Shown here in pieces: positions 6,604 to 36,933 of a stretch of 64,000 nucleotides of DNA; position 1 is the first letter of the stretch; each line of letters opens with the position of its first letter. The DNA lies in NCBI GenBank assembly GCA_916610825.1, contig OU744446.1:15744538-15808537 (forward strand), given 5' to 3'. This DNA comes from Haliclystus octoradiatus. Taxonomy: Eukaryota > Cnidaria > Staurozoa > Stauromedusae > Haliclystidae. The position numbers were made by a program, and so were the translations under genes. The notes beneath the pieces are model-generated. The model ran no database searches. It worked only from the letters and a program-made list of their open reading frames with translations, and had not been told where the DNA came from.

Positions 6604-7545
6604 CTATGCCGGAAGACGGGACATGGCTGCCAGTGCTTCCGGCGACGACCTTGTATACAAGGTATAAGCTTGGCTATTCCATCGTCCCAAGGCTTTGATC
6701 ATGTGATCAGTCACGCCATTGAGTCCAGCTGTAATGGATGCTCCAATCATGAAACTATGGCTAGCAAAATTACCAGGTATGTTGGCGTTACTGAGTATTG
6801 TACGGAGTTGCGACAATAAACTATCTTGTGTTAAAGGTATACCCGATGCAAACATGAATAGAGGGCCTGAATTGTTGCCCCTTTGACTTAGATAAGCAGA
6901 CATGGCCGTTATGGGACACAGCAGATTAGATGTACGGCCAGTGTAAATGTTGTGGCCCTGATGAAACAAATCGGTCTTGGAGACCTCGAGGAAGACTCTA
7001 AGACATGTTGGGTTGTTATGATTGTTAAACGATAGGTCAGTTGCTTGCAGATGGTGTGTCAAGGAGAAGCCTGCTAAATTAGGGACGGTAAACTCTGCTG
7101 CTCTCAAGAATCCAAAGTGTGCCAGTGTGCATGCAGCCCAGAACATCTTATTGTCGGGAGTTGACATATCCAATGAATTGCGGATGGTTTGTAGCAGTGA
7201 CGGTGTAATAGGCAGTCTTGCTTTGGTAGCCTGACCCGTGGTCCTTTGAATACCCCCGGACTACTCTATGGAGCTGTAAGCATTTGGCCAGATGATCTGG
7301 GAAACCCGAGGATCTGGGAAACCTTTTTCGATGTGTAGAGAGCGGATGGCTGCTAAGTAAACTTTGACTGAAGGTGGCTTCAAATATTTTGAAAGGTTTG
7401 ATGCAAACAGACATAGGGTGTGTTGTGTAGTCGGTAGAGGTTGATGTTGTCCTATGGTCTTTGAAAATTCAAGAAACTTGCGTTGAGCAGCAGTGTAAGT
7501 GCGGCGAGTCGAGGGGCCAGTCCATTGACTTGTAACATGTGGCAT
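6604..7545 (-). pseudogene. tyrosine recombinase (YR) of the DIRS-like element, frameshifted
   Basis: Two overlapping minus-strand frames make up the recombinase. The N-terminal core-binding part (7545-7261) has WTGPSTRRTYTAAQRKFLEF. The catalytic part (7173-6604) has the first Arg motif in GFLRAAEF and the C-terminal LGRWNSQAYTLYTR with the nucleophile Tyr. The central box reads HSFMIGASITAG. In DIRS-type recombinases this box is H-x-x-R, so Met replaces a catalytic Arg. Together with the frameshift this predicts an inactive enzyme. In a working element the protein would integrate circular cDNA. Confidence 0.82.
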
Positions 7546-7561
7546 CTAGCTTCCAGTGAAA

Positions 7562-7861
7562 TCAGATCAATTTGGCCAGTAGGTGATGAGGAATTTGAGA
7601 CGCACAACGATGGCTCAATGGTGCCAATCGGCAGAACTCCTGCCAACGGAAACAAGAAATAGCGTCAGCAATTGAATAATAGGAACCAGAGACATGTACA
7701 GATGAGAACAAGAAATTGTAACGAGCAGCTGCAAGCAGGAGAGCTCTCATGAGGTGCATTATAGATGGTATTATTGAAGTACGTTTATTTAGAATGTAGA
7801 CGACCGCTTCATTATCGGAGCGGAAGAGAGTATGTTGGCGGCTCCATTCAGATCCCCACAC
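7562..7861 (-). pseudogene. RNase H domain of the DIRS-like element
   Basis: The minus-strand reading contains FRSDNEAVVYILNKRTS, which matches the RNase H Asp motif of DIRS-type polyproteins, and further on SYYSIADAISCF, the usual C-terminal part of that domain. It lies directly between the reverse transcriptase and the recombinase, as expected. It is in a different frame from its neighbours. Confidence 0.78.
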
Positions 7862-7988
7862 GTGGGAAGCAACAACAATCGGAAACAGCTCTTTGTAGGC
7901 TATTGATTATGACGCCTGGGACGAAGCCCATGTGCCATTGAACCTTTTCTGATTATGAAATGCTCCATAACCATGAGTTCCTGAAGCA

Positions 7989-8534
7989 TCAGACACCACT
8001 TCCAGATCGAAATATGCTGAACACCCGAGCCAGAAGTTGACGCCGTTCCAGTCTTGGGAAGCTATTCCACCATGCCACATCTAATTTAAACTCCCTGTTG
8101 AGACGAATTGGGTGAGACGGAGAGCGAAAGCATGACAACAGATTAATCATCTGCCGAATAAATGTGCGGCCCGGCCACACCACTTTTGCGGCATGAAGCA
8201 AATGCCCAATAAGAGATTGAAGTTGTGACTTATTGCATACGTTGTAAGCCTGCCAGGATGAAACCAGCAATCGAAGGTTAGTCAGTTTATAGTTTGGTAG
8301 ACGAACAATCTGCCTGATTGAATCGATCTCGAGACCCAGCACCACAAGGTGCATGGAGGGTCCTTCGCATTTAGCTGGGTTCAATGGCAAGCCCAATTCC
8401 TGACAGACCAGCTGGGAGAGACCGAGGTGGTCTCCGCAAATGGCTGAGCTGGGAGGGCCCGCCAGGATGAAATCATCCAAATAGTGAACAATATTGGAAA
8501 TGCCAAATTTATTCTTGAGTATCCATTCTACCAT
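7989..8534 (-). pseudogene. reverse transcriptase fragment of the DIRS-like element
   Basis: The minus-strand reading holds VHYLDDFILAGPPSS, where YLDD is the RT active-site box. It continues through CQELGLPLNPAKCEGP and VVLGLEIDS and then the connection region with LIGHLLHAAKVVWPGR. These are the palm and thumb of a DIRS-type RT. The fingers and the first catalytic Asp, which should lie upstream, are missing because the right repeat begins within 70 bp. Confidence 0.83.
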
Positions 8535-8599
8535 GTCTGCAACAGCGTTGAATATGTAAGGAGCAGAATGAATTAGATAATAGTTTTCAGATAATAGTA

Positions 8600-8761
8600 G
8601 ACTTCACATGCTGATTGCGTGCATAATGAATCTGTGCGCATGCTACCTGGCCCTAGCTCTTGTAACCCAGGTTACTTACTGCACTGTGTGTGCCCTGGGT
8701 CATTGAGTGTGTCGTCACAATGGGTCAAGTTTAACTCAGCCTAATTAAATTAGCCCCCTTT
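8600..8761. repeat. right direct repeat of the DIRS-like element
   Basis: Partner of 6234-6393. Its outer end abuts the hAT coding sequence at 8762-8764 and cuts that reading frame at Glu-Ala-Glu-Gln, so it marks an insertion or recombination boundary. Confidence 0.85.
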
Positions 8762-8763
8762 CT

Positions 8764-10802
8764 ATTGTTCAGCTTCATCATTTGTTGCATTTGACTTTAT
8801 GGACTTTGCCAAATTAATAAGTTCTTTTGTAATTTTACTCTTGGCTGCAGAAGTCTTCATACTTTTCAAATGCAGGTTGCTTGCATTAACGCAACAAGTG
8901 ATTCGGATGTTAAATTGGTCCGATGTGAGGTTTTTACAATTTTCAATAGAGAAAATATTCTTTCTTAGAGCATGGTAGTGAAGCAACAGCAGCATAAAAC
9001 GCACTGAGGTTTGGATACTTTCTTCCACCGTTGGCATCTGTATCACTCTCCAGCAGTCATTTATATCCATGGAGATGTCAAGACCTTCCTGGAATACAAT
9101 TGGTCTCTCCATTCAGTGTCTAACATCTTCTTGTCCAGACCAGATATAAGCCTCCGATGCTTGTTACAGATCGACATAAGTGATGCTGGTGATCGTTCGA
9201 GAGCACATTTGGGACTCGTCCATTCGACAATGTTATAATAGGCATTCTTGAGGTCAAACCGTGTGTTTTTGAGCTATAAGCTCAATGCAGAAGCTTTTAC
9301 AATGTGTGCGGAATGCATCAATCATTTCTTTGCTTGCTACCTCTTCAAGTTCACCTAATGTAGCAGCTGCCTCAAATCCAAGATAAATTCTTTCCAAAGG
9401 CTCATGTTGATGCAATAGGCTAGGTTTGATGTCTGCGGCGTCTGTTGCTTTCACATAATCTTGCCTCATAAAGTCGTTTGCTGTGCTTTTAATCAGCTGG
9501 CTTATCTCACCCTGCAGTAGGTACAATTGTGGACGCTCCTGTTGGAAAATCCTGTTGAATGCATTCACTCTAGATAGTTGGTGGTCCATAAATTCCAGAT
9601 GCCCTCTAGTAAATAGATTCTTTAATGAGGATATAATCCTATCATTTTTATTTGAGGGATCCTCAAAAGCAGCAAGTGTAGAATATGATTGTAATGCTTG
9701 GTATTGTTCCAGTATTCTTTTCACACATATTTGAAGTGATAACCATCTTGTTTGCCCTGGAGAAAGCATCTTATGCGGTTCAGTATCGACAATTTTTTGA
9801 AATTGGCTGAAGGCATCCTGGCGCTGGGCAGAGTGATTCAGGTAGGAATAAACATCTCTGCACAAGTCCTCTACACTACACTACTTTTTGGTAGCTTGAG
9901 TGCTGCGTATGATGAAGCCAAGTGTATAGGATGACATGAACCATTTTACTGCTATGACGTCATGGTCTTTATGTAGCAATTGGACGACAGAATGTTTTTT
10001 CCGAACGTCACATTGGTTGTATCGGATGAGTAGCCAATAATATTTCCCATTGATATATCTCTTGAAGCAAATGTTTTTTCATCGCTTTCTATATGGCATC
10101 GGCTGTCCCGTCAGCAGTCTCCAACATATCAAACAATATTTAACAATTTTCAAAGGCCTCATTATCATAGTAAACTGCTAGTACTGCCAGTTGCTTTTTA
10201 GATGACAGATCTGTTGCTTCGTCTATAATGACACTAAATTTTGCATTTTGCAGTGATGTAACAGCTTCTCTCGTATAGTCAAAAGCCAAGGCTTGACGAA
10301 TCATGTTAGTTGCCTTTTGTTTCCCAAGAGTCACATAACGCAGAGCTATATCTCGTGGGAATAAAACTTGAAGGAGCTCCAGTAATGAGTCTGACAAACT
10401 GACTGATAAATTGTGTTTGGCGACAAAGTAGCAAATGCGTAGCTCTATTGATTTTGCTTCTCTTGATTCGTCCTTTGTCCAAGTCCCTTCGTCAGTAATT
10501 GGCTTTTGAGTCCCTATCTCTTTCTCATTTGCAGTATGTTTTCTACTCTCTACATGTCTTGAAATTCCTGTCTTTGAACATATCAGAAATTCAGAGCAGT
10601 ATTCACACCAAGGAGAGTGCTTACTAGACTTTGGCTGTATTTTTCTTCTAAGCCATTTTTTCCACACTGGATTTAGAAGCCACGCCCCAAATATTTGTTT
10701 ACTCTTTATATCATTTCCGCTCTTATTCTTCTTCTTTCTTTTTTTTGATAGTGGTTCAGCAGCAATCGGAAGGGTCCCCAAATGTGGCCAGCTTTGTTGC
10801 AT
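8764..10802 (-). pseudogene. hAT transposase, second family, broken
   Basis: The minus strand encodes an almost complete intronless transposase. 10802-10140 starts with a basic stretch (KKRKKKNKSG), then a zinc-finger-like C-x2-C...H region (CEYCSEFLICSKTGISRH), and ends in the catalytic-domain start (SVIIDEATDLSSKKQLAVLA). 9865-9254 carries DTEPHKMLSPGQTRWLS and the all-helical insertion region. 9112-8764 carries the end of the insertion and the C-terminal dimerisation motif (about 8965-8940, IFSLLKIVKTSHRT). Stops and frameshifts fall between these segments, so it is non-functional. The family resembles the ZBED/SCAND3-like hATs found domesticated in animals. The last codons are replaced by the right repeat of the DIRS-like element. 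Confidence 0.8.
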
Positions 10803-12403
10803 CCAACTGTTGAATCAATACCATGCCATCTAATATGTGTACAGTGCATTTCTCACCCAAGCAACCAAGGCGTAGGACCCAAAAGATATGATAATAATGC
10901 TCTCATAACTGAAGTTGCTGTTTTTTTTCACCTATAATGACTAATTTTGCAATAATCTCTCTCTCAGCGTTTAAACTCACACCTTTTTCTTTCAATTGGC
11001 ACAGTTGTATAACAGTCATTTCCTTGAAAGTTTTAGTTTTTTATTCTTTCGAAGAAAGGAGTTTTAATACTTTCAATTCTTTTTTAAATAAAGTGTTTTA
11101 AGGATCGTTTATTATTGGCTTCAAATTTATCTTGTGCAATTTCTTTTCTTGCTTCTATCCCTGAAGAATTATTAATTATAGGGATTACTTCAATTTGAAA
11201 GGATCTCATACAAGCTATATAGCTTCTCATCAAAATCAATACTGTCTCTTTCCCTGGTCTTTAGTGATGGTAGATTGATTATTAATGCCTACTGTATCTT
11301 CCAATCTCGAGGTGCATTTTGATACACAGTGACTAATGAGGACCCATCTCTAGACAGTTCCTGCATTTGTACAATAACCAGATATTCCCTCATGTCATTT
11401 CTGATCTCTATTTATTGTTTGTTTGATAACTTGGTCAGACGATAAATTGAATCTACCAGTTTGCCTTCTCACAACAAAATTACCATTCCTAGAAAATAAA
11501 GAAAATAAGCCACCCACAACTATTTAATATATGTTATCCAATTTAATAATGTTAATCTCATTTGCAGATCCAGAAAATACCTGGAAGCTTTGTCTACATC
11601 AGGATGAAAATTAGGTAAGTCTTCCATTTCTGCCCAGCAATAAGTAATACATCTTGATTAATTTGGCCTATCACAGGCAAACATCCAAGGCAGCATCGTT
11701 TCTGTTGCCTGGAGATGATTGAGCAAATCACCTCTCCTCAGAGACCTAATGAAGGTTAGCAATACTTCAGCAATCTCTAAGAAGTACAGAAAGACTGCTG
11801 TAGCTGTTGTAGACCATAGCTTCCGCTTGAGTTGTAAGCTTCAAAACTTTCATACAACTCAAAAACAGCCTTTGTAAAAAATAAATTTCTTTTGTAATAT
11901 TATTTATTGTTTGATGGTCAATATTTATTAATCAATTTTTCATGTTTTCAGTTCGGCTGAATGACCATATGCTTCAATCTTGTCATTTTGGTGCATCCAC
12001 TCTTTAAATGCATCTACGTGGTGTCCTTACATGGCCTCGTACATATATTTGTATATGTGTATCGCTTTGGTTGTAATGTTTTCCTGATAAACTGACCCGC
12101 TCAACTGAGTCTCTACCCAAGGTAATAATACATTTGTTTTGTTATCAAAATATTATAGTCAAATTGATTGGCAACATTTGACAACATTTGGATTTTCAAA
12201 CAAAGTTTAAACTGTATCTATTTCATTTGGTGATTATTAATTGAAATAGAAGTATTTAATTAATTGACGATTGATTGTATTGATCAGGCTCAGTTTATTG
12301 GATATTAATTGTGTTTTATTTGGAAATCAAAAGTTGTATAATACCTACCAATAACTGGCTTTGACAATCTTACATTCAACATTTAACACATAATATCTCA
12401 CTG
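10803..12403. other. no gene seen
   Basis: AT-rich sequence following the 5' end of the broken hAT gene. Part of it may be the hAT 5' non-coding region, but I found no terminal inverted repeat. Nothing else recognisable. Confidence 0.4.
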
Positions 12404-12689
12404 CCCCTGCGAAAAACAGTTCAGGAGTTCATGAACAGTTCATGAAGAGTTCATGAACGTTAAATGGCTCCACTTTTCCTGAACTGTTCATGAACAGTTC
12501 ATGAACCCTCACAGACAGTTCATGAACGTTAAATGGCTCCAATTTTCCTGAACTGTTCATGAACAGTTCATGAACCCTCACAAACAGTTCATGAACAGTT
12601 CATGAACAGTTCATAAAAATTTGGGGCCATTTAACGTTCATGAACTGTTCTTGAACTGTTCATGAACTCCTGAACTTTTTTCGCAGGGG
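12404..12689. mobile_element. palindromic GTTCATGAAC foldback MITE, longest copy
   Basis: The element opens with CCCCTGCGAAAAACAGTTC and closes with the reverse complement (GAACTTTTTTCGCAGGGG), so it has terminal inverted repeats. The interior is built from runs of the 10-bp palindrome GTTCATGAAC alternating with 'gttaaatggctcc' spacers. About 12 shorter or decayed relatives occur in this window. There is no coding capacity. Flanking 'tg' on both sides may be a short target duplication but is too short to trust. Confidence 0.85.
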
Positions 12690-13620: not shown

Positions 13621-15060
13621 CAGGGGTTGTCCCCTCTGGCCTTCTCATATTGTATCTCATAATCTACTAGATAGAAGATATTTGATTAGCACAGAACACA
13701 TTTTTACAGCTATTAGATCTATACGCTTCTAGATGACGATGTAGTTAATTTGAGAAGTGTTAACTTATAATACTTGAAAACGTCTGTGTGAATTGAATTT
13801 ACATTTATTTGATCTCCAAGGCTTTGTTTGCATGGGTGCATCACTGTCTAAGCATTCAGGCAAATGCTGTCACTGTTACAGCATAGTTAAGGAGGTGTTA
13901 TTGAACAAGGATTGTATAATTGGTATTGTATGTTAAATTGCTCATTATAATGCAATACTGTAATTCACTGTCCTCAGTCAGTCAGATTTGAGTTCTTTAT
14001 GTCAGAATGCTATTTGTTATTGTAATTAACAGAATATCAAAACCGCTTTGAAATATCTTTTGTAAAGTTCTCGAATACCTGTTTTATGTAAAACCCCGAC
14101 CCAAATTCATTTGAAAATTAAACCAAATAAAAAGTTGTGGAATGGAATTAACTCCCAGCTAAAGAAGTCGCTCCATCGAAGCTAAATAGATCATTTCTGC
14201 TGCAAACTGGCTCATAGCCGCATCTTTGAGAAATCGCAGCTAAAAGAAATGATATTGCTGCAGCTAAATATATCTTTCCACAGCAAATCGTCTGAACGCT
14301 GCATATTTGTTAAATCATAGCATCTAAATGGATCTCTGACTAATATCAATACTTAACTCATTTAATCATGGGCTTTATTCACGAAAAACACTGATTTTTG
14401 GAGACAACAATTATCCCATCTGATAGTAGATTGAATAGCTAGGTACTGTAGTGTGAGATGATGAAAAAGAGCTGAATAGATTTGACTAATTAGATGATGT
14501 ACAAGGACTTTTTAGCTGCAGAGATCTAACTGAATAGCTGCAACTGATTAGCTGCGGTACATGGACTCTTTAGCTGCAGACATAATTATTTCTCAAAAGT
14601 TATTAAAGACGTATTACCCGCTTTTGCAGTCGGTTTTCACAGCTCGGGCCACGTTTTTCAACGCATTGTTTTGAATTAGTTATTTCTGTTGAAATTATAA
14701 AGATTCAAACATTATAAATTAATCAATTAAAATTATGCAGATCATCAGATCTACAGTCCCTCTATTTAAATTTAAATTCATATTGCAAAACCTCAAAAAC
14801 ATTTTTGAAATCTGAAAACCTACTGGAAAACTCACTGAATAGGCTAGTGAATTGGTCTCTTTTCGGCAGCTTTCATATGGTGTGTTCCTGTAGTTTTTCA
14901 GTAGAATAAGAAAGATCTAAATTAAAGTGTTTAGCGGCTTCAGTTCCCAATCCCACTCCAGTATGTTTTAGTAAAGGGTTACCACATACTTGCTATGTTT
15001 GTATTCATATTTACTAAACGAGAAAATGTTGGGAGACACGAGTGATTTTTAGCTTCCCGA
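13621..15060. other. no gene; possible AGCT-rich decayed repeat
   Basis: Between 14150 and 14590 the words 'gcagctaaa' and its complement 'tttagctgc' recur in opposite orientations at the two sides, suggesting a decayed foldback element. The remainder is featureless AT-rich sequence. Confidence 0.35.
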
Positions 15061-15208
15061 GTAATCTACTTATATTAATAATACTGTCTGTTTATATATC
15101 ACAATATTTCTATATTTCTATATTTCTATCACTTATATCACTTATCACTTATATACATAATACTGTCTGTTTATATCACTTATATACATAATACTGTCTG
15201 TTTATATA
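15061..15208. repeat. local duplication of a unit 5' end
   Basis: The stretch 'ataatactgtctgtttatat' occurs three times. The block containing 'atcacaatatttctatattt' is present at about 15096 and again at the start of the first 3-kb unit (15209), so the 5' end of the unit was partly copied. Confidence 0.7.
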
Positions 15209-18200
15209 TCACAATATTTCTATATTTCTATATTTCGATATTTCTGTGTCTGTCCGCGACTTATGTACGTCTTACTGGCGATATAATACGGATAATCCGT
15301 TGTCGGGAAATTATGCAAACATTTGTGTCGAGATAACCGTGTACAGTAACAAATTTGTTGTATGAAAAGTATGGGTCTATGACGTTGTTTTAAAATAATA
15401 TACTTCATCTGATAATTTATTTGATATCCTTGCATTAAAAAATTCAGAGATTTTGAAAAATTTCATAGGTCGATAATCTAGCGGGCAGCCAAATCGAATT
15501 CAAATTGAAATCCCCAGAACAAAAATATTTTGCTTTGAATTTAAAAGCTGCGTGTAAATTGTTTGAGCAAGTGAAACTTGAAAATGAATCAGTTTTATGA
15601 TAATTAAAACAATACGAAATACTGAATTACATTGAATTACCAGTATAAATAGGCCAAACAAAATATGTTTTGAAATCAAAGAAACGTAGACTTATTTCAT
15701 GTAGTGTTGATATCAGCAATACATATAGCGCTGCACAAACGCTATGAAAATTAAAGAGACTTTAGGTCTTTAATTTATAAATGAAACAAAATGCCGTTCA
15801 TTACTTTTCACAAAATCGAGATACAAAACATTTCACTTTTAAAAAGGCTATTTTGATATATAATTTGTGAGAACACTGAGCAAACAATCTGTTTTGAAAT
15901 GAATAATCTATCGCGGGGCATAAAAACAAATTAACTTTCAAGAATTTTCAAAATGACGTTGGCGTTCGATCAATTCGAAAAATATTCAAAGTTCGAATAG
16001 ATTATCTGTCTACAGTATAAAATTATAGAGTTTAGAACTAATCAAGGCATTGCACAAAAGTATTTCTATAATTTATTAGTGAATATAAAAATATGAATCA
16101 TTTGGTTATGAGCAGGCAGGCTTTTATTTTCAGATTTTGCTTCAATAATTAACGAAGGAATTATAGGCATCGATTAAAATTAAAATTTCATTTTGTTGAC
16201 TTGCTATACGAATAACACACAGTATGTTACTACAGTTTCGAGAATAAAAATAGCGATGTCTTGTTATTATCGTTGATCAACATTTAATAAAGTTAATTTT
16301 TTCAGGTATATCAAATTCAACAAAGTTAAATTGAATTGAGCGTATGATTTGTGATAAATAATAATAATTATAATATTTTCAGCGTTCAAAAATTTTGCTT
16401 TGAATTTAAAAGCACAAAAACATAATTTAAAAACATTTTTAAATAGTTAATACAGTTTGGATGAGTGTAACAAACCTTGTGTTACAAAAATAAAAAGCGA
16501 AAAGGTTGCATGAAATAATCGATCATAGCAAACAATATTTATTAAAATACAACTTACCATTTTCCAAATGAGATCCAAATAAAAACTATACGAGCGGCAT
16601 AATCTCCGAACAACATTTAAATACATAATAGCGGGTTCTCTGAGTTAATACACCAATCAATAATAAGTTAACAACCATATTTTATCGAAGGAGAATGTAC
16701 GCCCGATAAGAATAAAATAAAGATTGTCTTTTATTCGAAATAATTCTGACAAAAATGATCATTTCATATCGTGATCAAATGCATGGTAAAGTAGATTCAT
16801 TTTCTACATAGTAAATTATCCTTTTCGTCAGACATCATAACATGAGCATTTAAATATTACCATCGGCTGTGGTATTTTATATCTTTGAAGCTGCACTAAA
16901 CATTTCCACTCTATAAACCATCGCGTCAGTTTCAATAAATTCTGAATAAATGCATATCACGAATCTGGCAAAATGAGTTGTTTTCGTTTTTCTATCAAAA
17001 TAATTAATTTATTCATAATCATCTTTTCTTTCATTCGACATCTGTAATGTATTATAAATAGCGCGTAGAAATATTGACAACAAGATGTAACATAATATCA
17101 ATATCGAATTAGTATAGCGATTTATTATAAAATTTTATTTCATTTTAAAAGAATGTTGATGCTATTATTCTGGAAAATTTGATAACAAGAAGCACTATGA
17201 GGTCAACTTTTCATATCTTTTGTTTACTTTTAAAATTTTATTTTCAACGAACTCTTAGTATTTTGATAGACTGCCATGAAAATCACAGTCCTACTTGCTG
17301 AGATTGCAAAGATTAAAAATATATAGGCTCATATACTATCATATCATAATATTTTCAGATTATATATATAATTTGATTTTCAATTACACGCGCGTGTGTC
17401 GGCCTTGTTCAATAATACGTTGTCGAAGCAGTAGGTTTGTTGATGACGTCAGTCAAAGCGTCTATAATAATAAGTAAGGCAGTGGCTCATTGGTTAATGC
17501 TCTGGCATCACAATATGAGGGTCGTCAGTTCAAATCCGCCATTCGGAAAATTTTTATCAACAATTTTTCTTATTTTTTTTAATATGAAGCAGTAAATCAT
17601 TGTTAATTAACAAAAGATATCGTTTGATCATGTTAATAACAGAAATTAGTGGACCATGTGTCTTGTCGAAGCTAAATTAATTTAATATTGAATATATTAC
17701 ATGCGATGCCACGAGTTTGACCGGCCTCACCTTGACGGCGTTATTTTGTGAACACCACATTAGTGTTGTTTGTATTGCAATGAAGATTTATCAATCCGAA
17801 CGGAACGCGATTTGATCGTATCGGGTCAGATTCGGGTTAATATTTTAGGTCTTCGGATCGGATCGGATTTGAAATGATTTTTTATGGATAGTTTCATATT
17901 TCGAAATTTGACTGAATATTTGTAATTCATAATAATTAATGTGTTCTGGTTTCCTTTCAGCACATAAAATAAAGTTTTTCTATGTAGAGATAGCTACGTT
18001 AAATTATACATTTCAATCGACTCAATTGATGTGAAATAAATTAAATTTTTATTAAAGGAATGATTAAGATGTATTGATTAATGCTACATCGTTTCAATAC
18101 GTATTGTGTCTCGTGTTCTCCTCCAGAGTTCATACTCCGTATTATACAGCGATAGTCAGCTTAGTCAATTGTTTAATTATAAGTGATCTGAAAGTTTTAT

Positions 18201-18236
18201 CATAGAAGGTCCATAATGGACTACACTCATTGCTAG
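15209..18236 (+). mobile_element. 3-kb Helitron-like unit, copy 1
   Basis: First of three tandem units. It begins TCACAATATTTC after an A and ends CTAG before a T. A short perfect hairpin (GTCCATAATGGAC, 18209-18221) lies 11 bases before CTAG. A 5' TC, a 3' CTRR preceded by a hairpin, and insertion between A and T are the structural marks of Helitrons. No Rep/helicase ORF is present, so it would be non-autonomous. A tRNA-like Pol III promoter lies at 17478-17547. The short ORF at 15220-15435 recurs in all copies but has no known domain and is probably incidental. Confidence 0.62.
17478..17547 (+). promoter_or_regulatory. tRNA-like Pol III promoter inside unit 1
   Basis: An A-box-like TGGCTCATTGGTTAATG is followed at the right distance by a B-box-like GTTCAAATCC, and the end is followed by T-rich sequence. 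It reads like the head of a tRNA-derived SINE. It lacks a clean acceptor stem and CCA-side pairing, so it is not called as a functional tRNA. Confidence 0.6.
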
Positions 18237-18238
18237 TA

Positions 18239-21200
18239 TCACAATATTTCTATATTTCTATATTTCGATTTTTCTGTGTCTGTCCGCGACTTATGTACGT
18301 CTTACTGGCGATATAATACGGATAATCCGTTGTCGGGAAATTATGCAAACATTTGTGTCGAGATAACCGTGTACAGTAACAAATTTGTTGTATGAAAAGT
18401 ATGGGTCTATGGCGTTGTTTTAAAATAATATACTTCATCTGATATTTTATTTGATATCATTGCATTAAAAAATTCAGAGATTTTGAAAAATTTCATAGGT
18501 CGATAATCTAGCGGGCAGCCAAATCGACTTCAAATTGAAATCTCCAGAACAAAAATATTTTGCTTTAAATTTAAAAGCTGCGTGTAAATTGTTTGAACAA
18601 GTGAAACTTGAAACTGAATCAGTTTTATGATAATTAAAGCAATACGAAATACTGAATTACATTGAATTACCAGTATAACTAGGCCAGACAAAATATGTTT
18701 TGAAATCAAAGAAACGTAGACATATTTCATGTAGTGTTGATATCAGCAATACATATAGCGCGGCACAAACGCTATGAAATTAAAGAGACTTGAGGTCTTA
18801 ATTTAATTTATTAATGAAACAAAATGCCGTTCATTACTTTTCTCAAAATCGAGATATAAAACATTTCACTTTTAAAAAGGCTATTTTGATACATAATTTG
18901 TGAGAACACTGAGCAAACAATCTGTTTTGAAATGAATAATCTATCGCGGGGCTTAAAAACAAATTAATTTGCAAGAATTTTCAAATTGGCGTTGGCGTTC
19001 GACTATTTCGAAAAATATTCAAAGTTCGAAGAGATTATCTGTCTACAGTCTAAAATCATAGAGTTTAGAATTAATCAAGGCATTGCACAAAAGTATTTTT
19101 ATAATTTATTATTTAATATAAAAAAACGAATCATTTGGTTTTAAGCAGCAAGGCTTTTATTTTCAGATTTTGCTTCCATAATTAACGAAGGAATTATACT
19201 GGCATCGATTAATATTAAAATTTCATTTTGTTGACTTGCTATACGAATAAGACACAGTATGTTACTACAGTTTCGAGAATAAAAATAGCGATGTCTTGTT
19301 ATTATCTTTGATCAACATTTAATAAAGTTAATTTCAGGTATATCAAATTTAACAAAGTTAAATTGAATTGAGCGTATGATTTGTGATAAATAATAATAAT
19401 TATAATATTTTCAGCGTTCAAAAATTTTGCTTTGAATTTAAAAGCACAAAAACATAATTCAAAAACATTTTTAAATAGTTAATACAGTTTGGATGAGTGT
19501 AACAAACCTTGTGTTACAAAAATAAAAAGTGAAAAGGTTGCACGAAATAATCGATCATAGCAAACAATATTTATTAAAATAAAACTTACCATTTTCCAAA
19601 TGAGATCCAAATAAAAACTATACGAGCGGCATAATCTCCGAACAACATTTAAATACATAATAGCGGGTTCTCTGAGTTAATACACCAATCAATAGTAAGT
19701 TAACAACCATATTTTATCGAAGGAGAATGTACGCCCGATAAGAATAAAATAAAGATTGTCTTTTATTCGAAATAATTCTGACAAAAATGATCATTTCATA
19801 TCGTAATCAAATGCATGGTAAAGTAGATTCATTTTCTACATAGTAAATTATCCTTTTCGTCAGACATCATAACATGAGCATTTAAATATTACCATCGGCT
19901 ATGGTATTTTATATCTTTGAAGCTGCACTAAACATTTCCACTCTATAAACCATCGCGTCCGTTTCAATAAATTCTGAATAAATATGCATATCACGAATCT
20001 GGCAAAATGAGTTGTTTTCGTTTTTCTATCAAAATAATTAATTTATTCATAATCGTCTTTCCTTTCATTCGACATCTGTAATGTATTATAAATAGCGCGT
20101 AGAAATATTGACAACAAGATGTAACATAATATCAATATCGAATTAGTATAGCGATTTATTATAGAATTTTATTTCCTTTTAAAAGAATGTTGATGCTATT
20201 AGTCTGGAAAATTTGATAACAAGAAGCACTATGAGTTCAACATTTCACATCTTTTGTTTACTTTTAAAATTTTATTTTCAACGAACTCTTAGTATTTTGA
20301 TAGACTGCCATGAAAATCACAGGCCTACTTGCTGAGATTGCAAAGATCAAAAATATATAGGCTCATATACTATCATATCATAATATTATCAGATTATATA
20401 TATAGTTTGAAATCAATACACGCGCTGTCGCCTTGTTCAGTAATACGTTGTCGAAGCAATAGGTTTGTTGATTAGTACAGTCAAGGCGCGTACAACAGTA
20501 TGTAAGGGGTTGGCTCATTGGTTAATGCTCTGGTATTACAAAATCAGGGTCGTAAGTTCAAATCTGCCATTCGGCAGTTTTTATCAACGATTTTTCTGAT
20601 TTTTTTTTTAATATGAAGCAGTAAATCATTGTTAATTAACAAAAGATATCGCTTGATCATGTTAATAACAGAAATTAGTGGACCATGTGTTTTGTCGAAG
20701 CTAAATTAATTTAATGCTGAATATATTGCATGCAATGCCACGAGTTTGACCGGCCACACCTTGACGGCGTTATTTTGTGAACACCACATTAGTGTTGTAT
20801 ATATTGCAATAAAGATTTATGAATTCGAACCGAACGCGATCCGATCGTGTCGGGTCAGATTCGGGTTAATATTTTAGGTCTTCGGATCTGATCGGATTTG
20901 AAGTGATTTTTTATGGATAGTTTCAGATTTCGAAATTTGACTGAGTATTTGTAATTTATAATAATTAATGTGTTCTGGCTTCCTTTCAACACATAAAATA
21001 AAGTTTTTCTATGTAGACAAAGCTACGTTAAATTATACATTTCAATCGACTCAATTGATGTGAAATAAATTAAATTTTTATTAAAGGAATGATTAAGATG
21101 TATTGATTAATGCTACATCGTTTCAATGCGTATTGTGTCTCATGTTCTCCTCCAGAGTTCATACTCCGTATTATACAGCGATAGAAAGCTTAGTCAATTG

Positions 21201-21265
21201 TTTAATTATAAGTGATCTGAAAGTTTTATCATAGAAGGTCCATTATGGACTACACTCATTGCTAG
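18239..21265 (+). mobile_element. 3-kb Helitron-like unit, copy 2
   Basis: Separated from copy 1 by the two bases TA. It starts TCACAATATTTC and ends in CTAG after hairpin GTCCATTATGGAC (21238-21250). The loop base differs from copy 1 while the stem is kept. The tRNA-like box at 20506-20575 is more diverged than in copies 1 and 3. The region around 20400-20510 also differs from the other two copies. Confidence 0.62.
20506..20575 (+). promoter_or_regulatory. tRNA-like Pol III promoter inside unit 2
   Basis: Same A-box/B-box pair as in units 1 and 3 (TTGGCTCATTGGTTAATG and AGTTCAAATC). Substitutions are concentrated in the anticodon-arm region. Confidence 0.5.
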
Positions 21266-24200
21266 TATTTCTATATTTCTATATTTCGATATTTCGATAT
21301 TTCGATATTTCTGTGTCTGTCCGCGACTTATGTACGTCTTACTGGCGATATAATACGGATAATCCGTAGTCGGGAAATTATGCAAACATTTGTGTCGAGA
21401 TAACCGTGTACAGTAACAAATTTGTTGTTTGAAAAGTATGGGTCTATGACGTTGTTTTAAAATAATATACTTCATCTGATAATTTATTTGATATCATTGC
21501 ATTAAAAAATTCAGAGATTTTGAAAAATTTCATAGGTCGATAATCTAGCGGGCAGCCAAATCGAATTCAAATTGAAATCCCCAGAACAAAAATATTTTGC
21601 TTTGAATTTAAAAGCTGCGTGTAAATTGTTTGAACAAGTGAAACTTGAAAATGAATCAGTTTTATTATAATTAAAACAATACGAAATACTGAATTACATT
21701 GAATTACCAGTATAACTAGGTCAAACAAAATATTTTTTTGAAATCAAAGAAACGTAGACCTATTTCATGTAGTGTTGATATCATCAATACATATAGCGCG
21801 GCACAAACGCTATGAAAATTAAAGAGACTTTAGGTCTTAATTTAATTTATTAATGAAACAAAATGCCGTTCATTACTTTTATCAAAATCGAGATATAAAA
21901 CATTTCACTTTTAAAAAGGCTATTTTGATATATAATTTGTGAGAACACTGAGCAAACAATCTGTTTTGAAATGAACAATCTATCGCGGGGCATAAAAACA
22001 AATTAACTTGCAAGAATTTTCAAAATGACGTTGGCGTTCGACTAATTCGAAAAATATTCAAAGTTCGAATAGATTATCTGTCTACAGTCTAAAATTACAG
22101 AGTTTAGAATCAATCAAGGCATTGCACAAAAGTATTTCTTTAATTTATTATTTAATATAAAAACATGAATCATTTGGTTTTGAGCAGGCAGGCTTTTATT
22201 TTCAGATTTTGCTTCCATAATTAACGAAGGAGTTATAGGCATCGATTAAAATTAAAATTTCATTTTGTTGACTTGCTATACGAATAAGACACAGTATGTT
22301 ACTACAGTTTTCAGAATAAAAATAGCGGTGTCTTGTTATTATCGTTGATCAACATTTAATAAAGTTAATTTCAGGTATATCAAATTTAACAAAGTTAAAT
22401 TGAATTGAGCGTATGATTTGTGATAAACAATAATAATTATAATATTTTCAGCGTTCAAAAATTTTGCTTTGAATTTAAAAGCACAAAAACATAATTTAAA
22501 AACACTTTTAAATAGTTAATACAGTTTGGATGAGTGTAACAAACCTTGTGTTACAAAAATAAAAAGCGAAAAGGTTGCATGAAATAATCGATCATAGCAA
22601 ACAATATTTATTAAAATACAACTTACCATTTTCCAAATGAGATCCAAATAAAAACTATACGAGCGGCATAATCTCCGAACAACATTTAAATACATAATAG
22701 CGGGTTCTCTGAGTTAATACACCAATCAATAATAAGTTAACAACCATATTTTATCGAAGGAGAATGTAAGCCCGATAAGAATAAAATAAAGATTGACGTC
22801 TTTTATTCGAAATAATTCTGACAAAAATGATCATTTCATATCGCGATCAAATGCAAGGTAAAGTAGATTCATTTTCTACATAGTAAATTATCCTTTTCAT
22901 CAGACATCATAACATGAGCATTTAAATATTACCATCGGCTGAGGTATTTTATATCTTTGAAGCTGCACTAAACATTTCCACTCTATAAACCATCGCGTCC
23001 GTTTCAATAAATTCTGAATAAATATGCATATCACGAATCTGGCAAAATGAGTTGTTTTCGTTTTTCTATCAAAATAATTAATTTATTCATAATCGTCTTT
23101 TCTTTCATTCGACATCTGTAATGTATTATAAATAGCGCGTAGAAATATTGACAACAAGATGTAACATGATATCAATATCAAATTAGTATAGCGATTTATT
23201 ATAGAACTTTATTTCCTTTTAAAAGAATGTTGATGCTATTATTCTGGAAAATTTGATAACAAGAAGCACTATGAGGTTAATTTTTCACATCTTTTTTTTA
23301 CTTACAAAATCTTATTCTCAACGAACTCTTATTTTGATAGACTGCCATGAAAATCACAGTCCTACTTGCTGAGATTGCAAAGATTAAAAATATATAGGCT
23401 CATATACTATCATATCATAATATTTTCAGATTATATATATAATTTGATTTTCAATTACACGCGCGTGTGTCGGCCTTGTTCAATAATACGTTGTCGAAGC
23501 AGTAGGTTTGTTGATGACGTCAGTCAAAGCGTCTATAATAATAAGTAAGGCAGTGGCTCATTGGTTAATGCTCTGGCATCACAATATGAGGGTCGTCAGT
23601 TCAAATCCGCCATTCGGAAAATTTTTATCAACGATTTTTCTTATTTTTTTTAATATGAAGCAGTAAATCATTGTTAATTAACAAAAGATATCGTTTGATC
23701 ATGTTAATAACAGAAATTAGTGGACCATGTGTCTTGTCGAAGCTAAATTAATTTAATATTGAATATATTACATGCGATGCCACGAGTTTGACCCGCCTCA
23801 CCTTGACGGCGTTATTTTGTGAACACCACATTAGTGTTGTTTGTATTGCAATGAAGATTTATCAATCCGAACCGAACGCGATTTGATCGTATCGGGTCAG
23901 ATTCGGGTTAATAATTTAGGTCTTCGGATCGGATCGGATTTGAAGTGATTTTTTATGGATAGTTTCATATTTCGAAATTTGACTGAATATTTGTAATTCA
24001 TAATAATTAATGTGTTCTGGTTTCCTTTCAGCACATAAAATAAAGTTTTTCTATGTAGAGATAGCTACGTTAAATTATACATTTCAATCGACTCAATTGA
24101 TGTGAAATAAATTAAATTTTTATTAAAGAATGATTAAGATGTATTGATTAATGCTACATCGTTTCAATGCGTATTGTGTCTCATGTTCTCCTCCAGAGTT

Positions 24201-24307
24201 CATACTCCGTATTATACAGCGATAGAAAGCTTAGTCAATTGTTTAATTATAAGTGATCTGAAAGTTTTTCATAGAAGGTCCATAATGGACCACAACACTC
24301 ATTGCTA

Positions 24308-24308
<1 letters not shown>
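21266..24308 (+). mobile_element. 3-kb Helitron-like unit, copy 3
   Basis: It lacks the first few bases (TCACAA) and starts directly in the 'tatttc' repeat. It ends in CTAG after the best hairpin of the three (GGTCCATAATGGACC, 24277-24291). The stem there gains a base pair and so does its neighbour. It is followed immediately by a TAA microsatellite. Around 23360-23640 it is almost identical to copy 1; elsewhere it groups with copy 2. Confidence 0.6.
23549..23618 (+). promoter_or_regulatory. tRNA-like Pol III promoter inside unit 3
   Basis: Identical to the box in unit 1 across A box, loop and B box. Confidence 0.58.

Positions 24309-24376
<68 letters not shown>
24309..24376. repeat. (TAA)n microsatellite
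   Basis: More than 20 uninterrupted TAA units directly after the CTAG end of unit 3. Confidence 0.97.
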
Positions 24377-25339: not shown

Positions 25340-25871
25340 TTATATAACTACAGAATTATGTCCATATTGCGGCAATGGCAAGCTTGAATGTACTACTGCT
25401 TTGGCATTGTCAAATGAGCTTGTATCAAAGCTTAAAACATCTCTGCTCATTTGTGAATCTTTAATCCGCATTCCACCAATGAAATAAACCTTCTTTTTTG
25501 ATTTAGTCAATGAAAACAGTTTCATATTATACAGACTTAGGCTAGTAGGCATCCATTTATTTGCTCGGATATCAAAAAACTGTATCACTGTATTATTAAC
25601 TGCAAGTTTACCAGTTCCTGCAGCAAAGATTTTTCCGTCAGCAATCACACAATTACCATTTTCACCAAGAAGTGAGTTTGGTAAGCTTGTAACACAACTC
25701 CAGTAGCCAAGCCTTGGGTCATAGCGTTCTATTAACTGGACAGGAGACTTTATTGTACAATGAGAGTTAGTATAACTAAAACCAGCCATTGCGTAGAGTG
25801 CACCATGATATGACTGAAGGCTAATATTACTTCTAGCTTTACTCATAGGTGGAATTACTTGCCACACGTCA
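25340..25871 (-). CDS. Kelch gene exon 4: last Kelch repeats and stop
   Basis: Acceptor AATATTTTTAG, then codons giving DVWQVIPPMSKARSN, ERYDPRLGYWSCVTSL, KIFAAGTGK, IRANKWMP and VYFIGGMRIKD, ending HNSVVI and a stop. A broken relative of this exon is at 13249-13620. Confidence 0.92.
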
Positions 25872-28800
25872 CTAAAAATATTCAAAGCAACAATTATCAA
25901 CATGCAGAATACATTGGATTGTATTTATTAAGCAAAGTAAAGTGGTTGTCAATTCCCTTTCGAAAAAAAGTTCATGAGTTCATGAACGTGAAATTGCCCA
26001 AAAATTCATGAACTGTTCATGAACTTCCAGACAATTTCACATTCATGAACTCTTTGTGACTGTGACTGATAAGTATTTGATTGAAACTTAAAATAATAAC
26101 ATTGACAATTTGGGTAAAACTTTGAAAGTAAAATGAGCTTGACTCAACAAACAGTTTGTTTTTTGATTAATACAAATTACTAAAACCATTCGAAAGAGTG
26201 TTGCAACCTTTTGCTTACAATAATTTCATTATTTATAATTTATATTCAAATACTCGGCCGCTGAATAAATAATCTCAACGTATCACATTTGACATGCTTT
26301 AATTCAACTCGATTTGTTTGAACATTATCATGGTCTATGTTTTTCCTTCTGCTCTGTTTGAATTAGTTGGATGGGAAATAATCGGAGATACTGAATCGAT
26401 TAATCGTTCAAGTATCATGACTAATCTTCTGATAATGGCATACTAGATTTTATAATTAAGAGATTGGAGCACACTTTTCTATAAGCTCTAGCCATATCGG
26501 GCACGAGAGGGAACACATAGGAGAAAACGAGAAAGCATCAGAATAACCCACGAGCCATCGCAGCTGGATTGTTGTGACATAGGTTGGGCCAACAACAAGT
26601 ATGGTATATATTTGAATTGTATTATACCATCGTCAGTTCAAAAGAAATCTATCTGTTCCCGACTCCTTTAGTAAAGTACTCATAAATAGCACATTTGTAA
26701 TTGAATAGGTTTTCTTTTCTTTTTCATTGTTTAATTTCTAGCAGTATTAAACAATTAGATTGTATTAAGTTTTTAGATCCTTAGCCTATAAATAACTTGT
26801 AAATTAATATTTTATTTCTTATGAACTGACGATGATGTAATGAATTATACCGAACATTTTTCAACAATCACTACTTGTAGTTTTTTGTCACTATCTTTTA
26901 CTCCGAAACGTTTTACGAACATGCTTTTGATCAATATACGAAAACTACATAGTCTACATTGCTTAGCAAAAATAATGTCATTAAACAGTTGTGTCATCTC
27001 AACACATTACCATGCCACATTTTAATAATAAACAAGCATTTGTTTAAACATATACTGTTAAGCATACATCACCGTCTCTTAAAATCTCTCAAAGATTGCA
27101 ACAGTGGAAATGCCGGGTTTTTAGATATAAAAAAAGATATTGACACTCAACATAGGGCTGACAAAAGTTGGAATTCTGAAATCCTAAATTCCGGAAGGTT
27201 TGAACAAAATCAGAAGAAATTGATATTTTTATGATTTATAGACCACACTTAGGCTACGTTTACACGAGAGCAAAAACCCGGGTTTTCAAAAGTCTTTCAA
27301 AAGTCCACTTTCAAAAAGTTCAGATAGGGTATCAGTTTACACAAGGCTAGATTTATCTATTTTGTCTACACAAAACGCTGTAACTCCATTATTTCTTGTC
27401 GGTTTTTCGTTGAAATTGGAATTTTATAATTCTTCGATTCTGTAGCTTCAGATCGATATGTTTTTTTATTTAAACCATTCAAAATAGTTTTTGTTATTCA
27501 TATCTAATTAAATTCCATGTGAATTGACACCGCTTTTGTAAATAATACATTTTAAATACGTATTATTCACGATTTTACCTTGCATAAACAGATGCATTGG
27601 ATAGTTTTACTAAATTATAGAATTTTATCCTAAAGCAAGGCCAAGTGGTTGCCAATATTTATAGGCAGTATCGCTGTAAATTGAAAGTAGACTTTTGAAG
27701 ACCCGTGTTTTCCATAAATCTCTGTTTAGACGACAAAAAGACCTGGGTTTTGCAAAGTCTGGTTTGAGAAACCCGGGTTTCCTATCCATACTTTCAGAAG
27801 TCCTGATAGACTCTCTAAGCGGACTAATTTCCTCTCGGGTTTCCTGTTTACGTCTAGACGCGAGGGCGATCCAGATTAAAATTCACTCGGGTTTCGTAAA
27901 TCCATTTGTCGTGTAAACGCAGCCTTAAAGTTAAGCAACACAAATAAAAAAAGTTAAAATGTTTCAAGAATTCCAGAACGTCAAATGAGATCCCCTGAGA
28001 ATCGCTACAAATGGATTTTGTACTCAAATTGTAAAAGTCATTGAAAATATTTCATTTCAGATTTTTAGATCTGAATGCCTCCAAAAATCAACACTTGTAT
28101 CAGGCCCCCGTCCAGGGTCCGACAAAAGTAGGAACCCTGGAATTTGATTACGGAAGGGTTACGGCAAATTCAGAAGAAAATTGAGATTTGATGATTTATT
28201 GGTTAAACTTTAACAAAAGATCAGAAGAAAATGCTTCTAGGATTCCAGAAGGCTGAATATTTAGTCAGGCCCTACCCCGTTCCAAGAAACCCTGTGCAGG
28301 CAGCTGTAGGCCTATGAAATAATGAGAAACTTACAGTAAAGGATCATATCGCTGTACAGTATTGAAACATCCCACTCCATCATTGCCGCCGGCAGCATAC
28401 ACCCATCCATCGTTTTCAGAAATAGCTAATCCTTGTTTAGGGCAATTCAGTGGAGCACAATGTTCCCAGGATTGCTGTTCAACATTAAACCTTTCCATAC
28501 TGCTTTTTAAATGTGTTGATACGATTGCATTTGTCCCTAAAAATCAAATATTACAATACTACAATCTGTGGATACATAGGATATTTAACTGTACAAGGAA
28601 TTGCGGCATATTGCTGCAGCTGGATAATCAATGATATCAGACTTGAAACTTGTATTAATTCATCAAACAAAAAACGCTGTCAGTTATGTGAAAAGTTTGC
28701 TTAAATAATGTTATCAGTTCATTTAGAGCTTACTTATCCGGTATTTCTATATAAATGATGATGATAATAATGATTGTTATTGTGAGAACATAGCTTGAAT

Positions 28801-34800: not shown

Positions 34801-36513
34801 TACCATGTATTAAGAAGCTATTATGATCAAATAAACATCTATCTATCTATATCCAGGTTTCATAGTATTCTGAATACTGCCCTATTATTCCCTGTGAAAA
34901 GTATTTTTTGTGGTTAAAATGATTAATTTCAAGTGAGGTTAAACTGATGCCTATATGGCACTTGATAACTTATTAAAGTTGAGATTATCATGGCAAATGC
35001 TATATTGAATAAATGGTCAGTGGACAAAGTGATTGACACTAGGATCTTATTGGCCACATGACGTGTGTAGCCTATTGAATAAGTGAGATTTTATGAATTA
35101 TTTTTAGTGCGCATGTCTCTATTATCTGGGTGTGGTAGCCAGTCTTGCCATTTTTGTCCAGCTTGCTAGCAGAATTTGAATCGCTCTTCAATTCAGTATA
35201 TTTGTTTTGATAGTTTGATACTGATTTTTCTATTGGTTATTTGGCTATTTTGAGTTTGATTTAGAAGTCGATACACTGATTGTTTGCACACCATAAATGG
35301 TGTTTTTTCGTGCATTATATTTATTAGAGTTATTAGGTTATTGAATGATGTTATTAACTATTTGATTGAAGTGCGAAGTTGCACTGAGTGATATTAGAGT
35401 ATTGAATGATGTTATTAATTATTTAAGTGCAAAGTTGCACTGAGTGATATTAGAATATTGAATGATGTTATTAATTATTTGATTGAAGTGCAAAGTTGCA
35501 CTGAGTGATATTAGAATATTGAATGATGTTATTAATCATTTGATTGAAGTGCAGCAGAAAATATGGTAAGGGGAGTATATTAGGTACTCCACTGACTTAG
35601 CAGTGTGACTGGTGCTTGGGTTGGTGGTGACAGGTATGATTTATGCTGTATTGGTGCTAATATATTTGGGTCATCTACCAATATCCACCAACCAAACACC
35701 AACGCCAAATATTCAATATAGGCAAGGAGTTTAACTGAAAAATAATTATAATGATAGGCCTAACAATAGAGTAAGAAATATTCACTTACGAAGTGTTTTT
35801 GATGGAAGGTACTTGATGCGAACTAGTTTGAAAAGTTCAGGAAATTGATCTTCTCTTTCAAGAAAATTGTAGTTACACCATTTGACAAGGAAATCAAAAA
35901 CATCTGTCTCAGAATAGATTTCAAGTTCCTCGCAATTAAACAGAGCTTTCAAATGGAAAACATCAAGTTCTAGCAATTGTTCCTTCTTAGAGAGTGTAGA
36001 AAAATGATGACGAATATACTTCACTGCTACACTTTTGAGCATATCACTTTTTTCAGCTGCCAGCTTCAAATTATATACACAGTTTTCTTCACTTATAAAA
36101 TTTGTCAAAGCTGAATAGGTTATATTCAGCAGACTTTTAATTTCCAAAGTTTCAGCAGCTAGAATAATTTCAAACATTTCCATTTTTGATACAGTAATAG
36201 CTGACGTGTAACAATACTGGATAATTTTTGATAAAATATCAGGCTGAATATCTTTTAGCATGACAGGTTTATGATCGCTTTCTTCAATGTTGTACGATTC
36301 AGCAGTGATAAATTTCTTCACGTAATCACTACTAGCAGCCAGGATAATTTTATGGACTTTGAAGGATTGATTGCCAGCAATTAAAGTTAAGTCGCATGCA
36401 AAATTATCTTTGTACATTTGCAGCAATGATTCCTTCGAGATAAGCGAATGTGAATCATCCCTTAAAGTAAACTCATTTTCAATATCTTGCGAGGTTTCTA
36501 TGTTGTTAGCCAT
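25340..36513 (-). CDS. Kelch-like protein (BTB-BACK-Kelch), 4 exons, 589 aa
   Basis: Four exons on the minus strand, 36513-35790, 31686-31375, 28536-28335 and 25871-25340, join with matching phases and GT-AG ends into 589 residues, the usual size of KLHL proteins. Residues about 28-140 form the BTB domain (CDLTLIAGNQSFKVHKIILA). Residues about 140-241 form BACK (SEENCVYNLKLAAEKSDML, ending KLVRIKYLPS). Residues 260-589 form Kelch repeats with the GG pairs in IYVLGG, IYVCGG, VYAAGG and VYFIGG and the terminal Trp/Tyr positions (ERYDPRLGYW, QRYDPLLDVW). By family knowledge such proteins are CUL3 E3-ligase adaptors that bind substrate through the Kelch propeller. The particular KLHL orthologue and substrate are not identifiable. 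The start is the first Met of the frame; the next gene begins 420 bp away on the other strand. All three introns are filled with mobile elements. Confidence 0.9.
25964..26058. mobile_element. GTTCATGAAC foldback MITE, decayed copy
   Basis: Runs of 'gttcatgaac' around 'aaattgcc' spacers, in intron 3 of the Kelch gene. The outer CCCCTG ends are lost. Confidence 0.7.
27252..27924. mobile_element. PIF/Harbinger-type MITE with TTA target duplication
   Basis: Terminal inverted repeats GGCTACGTTTACACGA and TCGTGTAAACGCAGCC match at 15 of 16 positions. TTA flanks both ends (27249-27251 and 27925-27927), the 3-bp duplication typical of PIF/Harbinger. The interior has several near-palindromic 'aacccgggttt' boxes. 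No transposase is encoded. Located in intron 3 of the Kelch gene. Confidence 0.82.
28335..28536 (-). CDS. Kelch gene exon 3: middle Kelch repeats
   Basis: 202 bases, acceptor TTTTTAG and donor TTACT before GTAAGT. Encodes NAIVSTHLKSSMERFN, QSWEHCAPL and WVYAAGGNDGVGCFNTVQRY. Too short to be found by an ORF-length filter; found by phase and motif continuity. Confidence 0.88.
29594..29710. mobile_element. GTTCATGAAC foldback MITE copy
   Basis: Both arms present: 'caggagttcatgaacagttc' on the left and 'tgaactctttttcgcaggg' on the right. Lies in intron 2 of the Kelch gene. Confidence 0.8.
30281..30943. mobile_element. TIR MITE, AGCCTGCGTCACAG ends
   Basis: Left arm TAGCCTGCGTCACAGACC and right arm GGCTGTGACGCAGGCTA are inverted, with further inverted similarity inside ('gcattacggcc' and 'ggccgtaatgc'). 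Flanks are TGACTTGAT and TGACTTTAT, a probable 8- to 9-bp target duplication. No transposase. In intron 2 of the Kelch gene. Confidence 0.75.
31375..31686 (-). CDS. Kelch gene exon 2: first Kelch repeats
   Basis: 312 bases with acceptor ACTTACAG and donor GGAG before GTAAGC; phase 1 at both ends. Contains IYVLGGCQYHGDNALS and WIYVCGG. Confidence 0.9.
31776..32679. mobile_element. TIR element with GGGGAGACTTGGACC ends
   Basis: The left end reads GGCATAGGGGAGACTGGGGA followed by GACTTGGACC. The right end is its inverted form (GGTCCAAGTCTCACAGGTCT, CCCTTAGCC). Subterminal 'ccatgtctccc' boxes recur. No coding capacity. In intron 1 of the Kelch gene. Confidence 0.75.
33273..33680. repeat. degenerate GTGCACGCC minisatellite
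   Basis: About a dozen occurrences of GTGCACGCC or one-base variants. They are spaced 25-50 bases apart and usually followed by 'ggtaatattc' or 'catacgata'. Units alternate between two tail types. In intron 1 of the Kelch gene. Confidence 0.85.
35340..35553. repeat. 61-bp tandem repeat, about 3.5 copies
   Basis: Units start with 'attgaatgatgttattaa' at 35340, 35401, 35457 and 35518. The second unit lacks five bases. Located in intron 1, about 240 bp from exon 1 of the Kelch gene. Confidence 0.93.
35790..36513 (-). CDS. Kelch gene exon 1: BTB and BACK domains
   Basis: 724 bases, phase 1 at the donor (CACTTC before GTAAGT). Encodes residues 1-241: a polar N-terminus (MANNIETSQDIENE), BTB and most of BACK. 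Splitting BTB-BACK from Kelch by an intron is a common layout in this family. Confidence 0.92.
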
Positions 36514-36933
36514 ATCTCTAGTATATATTTCCAGAGCAAGGTTTTACCGTTTCAGATAAGAGCCGAATTCCAACCGTCAATCAGGTTATATTCAAGTTGT
36601 ATTTGCGTCTAGATGAGTTGAGTAGATTAATATTTTTAATAACAATAAGGTATTTGAGAAAAGCGAAATCCAACAATTTCTTTGAATAAATACATACTTA
36701 GTTTTAAATAAAATAATGATAAATTGTTAGCCAGCTGAGGTTTGTGACTGTTGTGAGTGTCATGCTCCTGATCACTGATCAGATCGAATGTTGAAAATTG
36801 ACCATAAAGTAAGCGTGCAATTATCGATAACCTGTACTAAACCTGTACTGAGTTCCACCATATTGTTTTCGCGCCAGCTCTTTTGCTGTTAAAACCTCTT
36901 TAGTGAAAAGTAGGAGCGAGGCCGGCAAAGAAA
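36514..36933. promoter_or_regulatory. shared head-to-head promoter region
   Basis: The two start codons are 420 bp apart on opposite strands. There is no TATA box at a useful position. Adjacent motifs CCACCATATTG (36855-36865, YY1-like) and TTTTCGCGCC (36866-36875, E2F-like) lie 60 bp upstream of the plus-strand ATG. This layout is typical of a bidirectional TATA-less promoter, but no transcription start can be placed. Confidence 0.55.

Follow-up and report, generated by a model that had tools for sequence, protein, structure and literature searches.

Tandem arrays and head-to-tail joints of Helitrons have been cited in support of rolling-circle transposition (PMC5876387), and an array of three Helitron-like units in the staurozoan Haliclystus octoradiatus raises the question of whether such a structure records one round of replication or several separate insertions. 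The window, by which we mean the whole stretch of 64,000 nucleotides that was analysed, spans C1:15744538-15808537 of a 261.9-Mb genome. As a first-pass annotation had described, three units follow one another head to tail, and all three end in CTAG (at 18236, 21265 and 24308) with T as the next base. BLAST identities are 95.3% between the first and second units, 97.0% between the first and third and 94.9% between the second and third. The array has a GC content of 29-30%, in keeping with its earlier description as A+T-rich, and no stop-to-stop frame within it exceeds 95 aa, which agrees with the earlier statement that it carries no Rep/helicase. We consider it very likely that a non-autonomous canonical Helitron inserted here on three separate occasions, one copy nested in another. 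It was probably mobilised by an autonomous Rep/PIF1-helicase Helitron of about 19.8 kb with the same ends.

Joints and severed heads in the window

The 5' boundaries had been placed at a TC at 15209 and at 18239, whereas both positions proved to be internal, since other copies of the element continue upstream of them into what we call heads. The true element start in the window is T15065, preceded by A15064, and the interval 15065-15208 is a stack of repeated heads, every one beginning A/TC. Copy 1 (15176..18236; all array features lie on the plus strand) is a complete unit running from A/TC to CTAG, with its own head at 15176, whereas copy 2 (18237..21265) and copy 3 (21266..24308) lack their cut-off heads and start with TATCACAATATTTC and TATTTCTATATTTC, respectively. 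The internal joints read CTAG/TATCACAATATTTC (CTAG/TATCAC) and CTAG/TATTTCTATATTTC (CTAG/TATTTC), and both are A^T cuts within the head of the next unit, at different places. A head remnant of copy 2, ending in CTGTTTATA, lies upstream at 15138..15175 and, when fused to 18237 onward, restores the intact canonical head of that copy exactly. A further remnant at 15065..15128, which starts A/TC and ends in TTTCTA, is assigned to copy 3 and is compatible with the joint CTAG/TATTTCTATATTTC at 21266, its exact cut point being masked by an 8-base repeat. Between the two remnants sits a spare 9-nt head piece, TCACTTATA (15129..15137), that nesting does not account for.

In the proposed course of events, copy 3 would have entered a host A^T at the (TAA)n run that now follows the array (24309..24376), with A15064^T24309 as the putative target; copy 2 would have entered an A^T within the AT-rich head of copy 3; and copy 1 would have come last, into an A^T within the head of copy 2. 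We infer this order from the upstream position of the cut fronts and from the fact that copy 1 keeps its own head. Every insertion would strand the severed front of the older head upstream, and heads would therefore accumulate ahead of a head-to-tail row of bodies.

The relationships of the three copies point the same way, as each has closer relatives elsewhere in the genome than in the array. With the window's own loci set aside, copy 1 shows 99.94% identity across 1657-1692 bp to loci L008, L012, L015, L017 and L018 (on C2, C6, C7 and C8); copy 2 matches L062 at 100% across 1515 bp in its 3' half and L026 at 99.0% in its 5' half; and the halves of copy 3 are 99.7% and 98.6% identical to L044 and L006. 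The units represent different sublineages and do not look like local duplicates. The first-pass annotation had read the array as a reflection of rolling-circle replication, a view at odds with joints that are A^T cuts in heads, with remnants upstream and with units of different sublineages.

The neighbourhood has features of its own. The left flank (14966-15062) represents a palindromic repeat family of many genome copies, and a single arm of the palindrome adjoins the array. Retroelement- and transposon-like open frames occupy 6604-10814 on the minus strand; within this region, 7989-8603 gave a weak RVT_1 match (3.8e-5, below cut-off), and 6604-7260 and 10140-10814 gave no Pfam match. Kelch and BTB/BACK exons on the minus strand (25340-25924 and 35782-36543) indicate that a Kelch-like gene probably adjoins the array. 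A nuclear RNase P RNA gene lies at 63212-63534 on the minus strand (151.5 bits), and arrays of an 11-bp palindromic unit of the AGTTCATGAAC type are found at 12426-12614, 38902-38994 and 41983-42072.

The family, its ends and its autonomous relative

Judged from sequence features, the array units are non-autonomous canonical Helitrons of a dispersed family. The last 14 bases of the unit have 699 exact matches in the genome (343 + 356; reversed control 0), and a 26-base word near the 5' end has 776 (388 + 388; control 0). On C1, an exact end lies on the same strand no more than 25 kb away for 43 of the 64 5' anchors, and 26 of these 43 sit 2953-3010 bp from it, so that units of about 3 kb are the common form; 47 of the 58 exact ends on C1 lack a same-strand exact anchor within 400 bp. 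A dense cluster at C2:2.48-3.03 Mb has 36 listed 14-mer ends in about 0.55 Mb, compared with 58 on the whole of C1. TC follows a host A, CTAG is followed by a host T, a hairpin precedes the 3' end and a Rep/helicase partner has the same ends; insertion at A^T without target duplication is seen in the exact restoration of copy 2's head. Together with the dispersed copies, these features bear out the earlier assignment to a non-autonomous Helitron. The checks proposed with that assignment had mixed outcomes. Independent copies do have the exact 3' end in common, whereas their 5' end is an A/TC inside a block of variable length and not the boundary first noted. Empty A/T sites were found inside the family's own heads, but none in unrelated DNA for this array: the joined window flanks (479 nt) matched both flanks and a repeat family on part of the left flank, with no listed match spanning the join (40 of 1297 candidates scored).

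Several other classes were considered and rejected. Satellite DNA does not fit, as the copies are dispersed and not solely in continuous tandem arrays, nor does a SINE or LINE with a TAA tail, as other sequence follows many of the ends. The region near 17470-17550 has a tRNA-like look from what we take to be A-box- and B-box-like words, an impression dropped when ARAGORN gave no tRNA and 17380-17620 had no Rfam tRNA match at E up to 5. Helentrons and HINEs insert between T and T (PMC4067079), whereas here A precedes and T follows the element.

The heads are of two types, starting TCACTTATATACATAATACTG or TCTACTTATATTAATAATACTG and continuing with TTTATATATCACAATATTTC and the 8-base repeat. All 19 head starts parsed, from nine blocks, are preceded by A; the L003 block is a truncated head without such a start. 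At the other terminus, T follows CTAG in 57 of 57 distinct ends bearing CATTGCTAG, the next two bases being TA in 44, TT in 11 and TG in 2, a count that omits eight Rep loci in which the match is internal and coding, as well as the ends with a changed motif (L001, L005 and L021). The short perfect stems reported earlier before CTAG are indeed present, at 18209..18221 (GTCCATAATGGAC), 21238..21250 (GTCCATTATGGAC) and 24277..24291 (GGTCCATAATGGACC) in copies 1, 2 and 3, 11-13 nt before CTAG. Shuffles of the same ends reached the 5-bp stem of copy 1 in 204 of 2000 cases, the stem of copy 2 in 220 of 2000 and the 6-bp stem of copy 3 in 37 of 2000, and the 7-bp stem of the autonomous 3' end in 7 of 2000; the hairpin by itself is weak evidence for a Helitron. 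Stems of 5-7 bp, 14-17 nt from the end, occur in 9 of 13 end variants, V10 having a different hairpin and V11-V13 no perfect stem longer than 4 bp by the script used; in the alignment of the 13 variants, hairpin lengths vary between subfamilies and the alignment shifts. It had been suggested that copy 3 gained a base on both sides of its stem. The reverse reads better, for the autonomous end has AGGTCCATTATGGACCT, relative to which copies 1 and 2 lack one C on the 3' side. The ends of L046, L048, L051 and L059 have ACACTCATTGCTAG in common and differ in upstream sequence and hairpins, so these loci are probably other subfamilies. L047 (C1:6406482, minus strand) is a tiny derivative in which three heads are present and the distance from anchor to CTAG is 79 bp, a near-minimal set of ends.

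An autonomous relative, for which a search had been suggested, was found as a Rep-helicase element with the common 3' end. The Helitron_like_N model has 54 matches in the genome, some of them separate pieces of one element, and eight matches lie in open frames of 985-1195 aa with E-values of 1e-44 or better. The copy on C4 is about 19.8 kb long, with its own head at 33222887 and its terminal CTAG at 33242713, and its open stretches contain Helitron_like_N (6.8e-50), PIF1 (4.6e-43) and Pif1 2B (3.5e-20) domains; the coding sequence also has words that we take to be the H-C-H and Walker-like motifs. In two further autonomous copies the Rep match and the same 14-mer end lie 10,965 and 10,964 bp apart, confirmed by sequence. 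The repeats before the autonomous element's Rep domain (L072:3-1040) resemble STPR repeats (4.8e-5, 24.1 bits, cut-off 27). The autonomous element and the unit have the head in common; copy 1 is 95.0% identical to the autonomous 5' part over 2460 aligned positions; a 57-bp block follows, and the final 60 bp or so of copy 1 are 88.5% identical to the autonomous 3' end. The unit's 207 bp at 17600-17806 are missing from the corresponding part of the autonomous element, and its 314 bp at 17864-18177 have no match in the part of that element that was read, all but 4.3 kb (C4:33238001-33242349). The unit looks like an internal-deletion derivative, for which the autonomous element would supply the enzyme.

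Joints across the genome and their orientation

Joints of the kind seen in the window are numerous. One head-joint class has 132 genome matches (control 0), and a pattern for three further classes has 121 (control 4), of which 95 of the 100 listed are head-like. Joints with a head core within 30 nt in the same orientation number 126 (control 0), whereas the matched search in the opposite orientation returned 2 (control 0); the sets of 132, 121 and 126 overlap. On C1, a same-strand exact anchor lies within 400 bp of 11 of the 58 exact ends, as against 0.019 expected under uniform placement over an assumed 39 Mb, and an opposite-strand anchor lies near none. A genome search for direct CTAG/TC(T)ACTTAT joints gave 15 (control 1), for which either concatemers or insertion at A^TC could be responsible.

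What produces this one-way pattern is a matter on which we can offer only a tentative proposal, namely that the Helitron machinery directs insertions, with strand polarity, to 5' ends of its own family that are already resident. Our guess is that the bias arises from strand exposure at the resident's 5' end: the enzyme would open one strand at the A/TC end, and incoming copies would join A^T sites on the strand thereby exposed. Alternatively, insertion may be undirected, the heads being merely AT-rich, with opposite nests lost afterwards because close 3-kb inverted repeats are unstable. This possibility, which concerns the bias and not the nesting itself, is the chief competing account and seems to us about as likely as the first; it is consistent with the generally AT-rich insertion flanks seen in the two bases that follow CTAG. 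It sits less easily with the share of exact ends on C1 that abut another unit, given that the genome has much other AT-rich DNA, and with the near absence of opposite joints. Helitrons in maize are also reportedly found near other Helitrons.

Other arrays and known systems

Nesting makes predictions for arrays elsewhere, and all three forecasts made before the search came true. At L007, a joint CTAG/TATCACAATATTTC was expected near C6:4,245,680 and seen at C6:4245678; at L008, CTAG/TATTAATAATACTG was expected near C6:2,420,840 and seen at C6:2420820; and at L004 no joint was expected and none is among those listed near 12.26 Mb. Two remnants match two joints at L002 (C6:16830858 and 16833893), and one remnant matches one joint at L006 (C6:10417246). 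The autonomous copy on C4 occupies the same nested position, inside another unit's head, with a remnant at C4:33222840-33222886 and the joint CTAG/TATTTCTATATTTC downstream, and behind a second autonomous copy (C2:31713412) a joint at C2:31724875 follows at the same distance. At C2:4357133-4363349, the pieces carried by three consecutive joints, TATCACAATATTTCTA, TATTTCTA and TATTTCTATATTTC, add up in that order to the head. Other observations run against the scheme. The remnant TCTACTTA predicted at L097, the sole testable one of four regions (the other three had no unit there), was not present in exact form, and TCTACTTATATTA stood in its place, a miss of 5 nt; the L008 array has two more joints without an upstream remnant; the spare piece TCACTTATA recurs at L007; and L047 carries its three heads with no joint behind them.

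Long regular arrays of units of about 3 kb are found at C8:5.58-5.61 Mb and C8:7.12-7.15 Mb, and the latter has five joints of equal matched length, with two joint types alternating further on, which suggests later duplication. Local duplication by unequal crossing-over, deriving three units from one, is a process that this C8 array seems to illustrate; for the window it is highly improbable, as units 3-5% apart have nearer relatives elsewhere and the cut point differs between the two joints. A single insertion of a multimer, made by repeated copying of one Helitron beyond its 3' end, is hardly credible here: Helraiser is known to form exact CTAG-TC circles (PMC4778049) and the direct joints counted above would suit such an origin, but insertion at A^TC is equally expected to give direct joints, neither window joint is CTAG/TC, the units are too unlike at 94.9-97.0% when closer relatives exist elsewhere, and upstream remnants are not predicted. 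Nested insertion accordingly stays our reading of the window, and it is not the sole process in the genome, nor are all joints independent events, because of the direct CTAG/TC joints and the signs of duplication on C8.

The Haliclystus family resembles canonical Helitrons (Helitron1) such as Helraiser of bats, which is described as having 5' TC, 3' CTAG, a terminator palindrome 11 nt from the end and exact head-to-tail circles, in its TC and CTAG termini, A/T target, autonomous Rep and helicase, non-autonomous derivatives and a hairpin lying some 11 nt from the end (PMC4778049). Unlike the Helraiser described there (PMC4778049), it has a 5' terminus made of variable heads stacked in a block, it often inserts into heads of its own kind and does so nearly always in one direction, and its coding region is spread in several open stretches over the autonomous element of about 19.8 kb. 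A further parallel is FoHeli of Fusarium, for which several 5' termini per element are described and self-insertion into the 5' end was proposed; the authors left a tandem triple in Metarhizium undecided between self-insertion and rolling circle (PMC5148889). FoHeli has non-canonical, Helitron2-like termini and few cases (PMC5148889), whereas the present family combines canonical ends with joints in the hundreds, remnants that fit exactly and a bias in strand. An adjacent pair of maize Helitrons, likewise head to tail, was interpreted as consecutive insertions because the two elements differ, as our units do; the maize joint is CTAG/TC at the terminus, whereas most joints counted here lie inside a head (PMC2267711). 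Plant centromeric arrays (Xiong et al. 2016, as reviewed in PMC12628747) similarly have many 5' ends and few 3' ends and have been explained by rolling-circle amplification of truncated copies, whereas the present units are full-length with their own 3' ends. In the literature searched, mostly non-subscription papers, no statement was found that a Helitron family inserts one-way and at genome scale into 5' ends of its own. Self-insertion was thus proposed before, in Fusarium, and what seems new is its scale and strand bias.

The element is of an ordinary kind (a canonical Helitron together with its deletion derivative), and its habit is unusual and well marked. The window array, and parts of others, resolve into separate insertions with matching cut pieces. 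Counting such pieces allows concatemers and self-insertion to be told apart in whatever genome is examined, and the family offers both an origin for multi-headed 5' ends and a natural system for the study of Helitron target choice. If the machinery does target resident 5' ends as proposed, the pile of heads before an array would serve as a legible record of nested insertions, and some arrays credited to rolling-circle replication would be nests instead.
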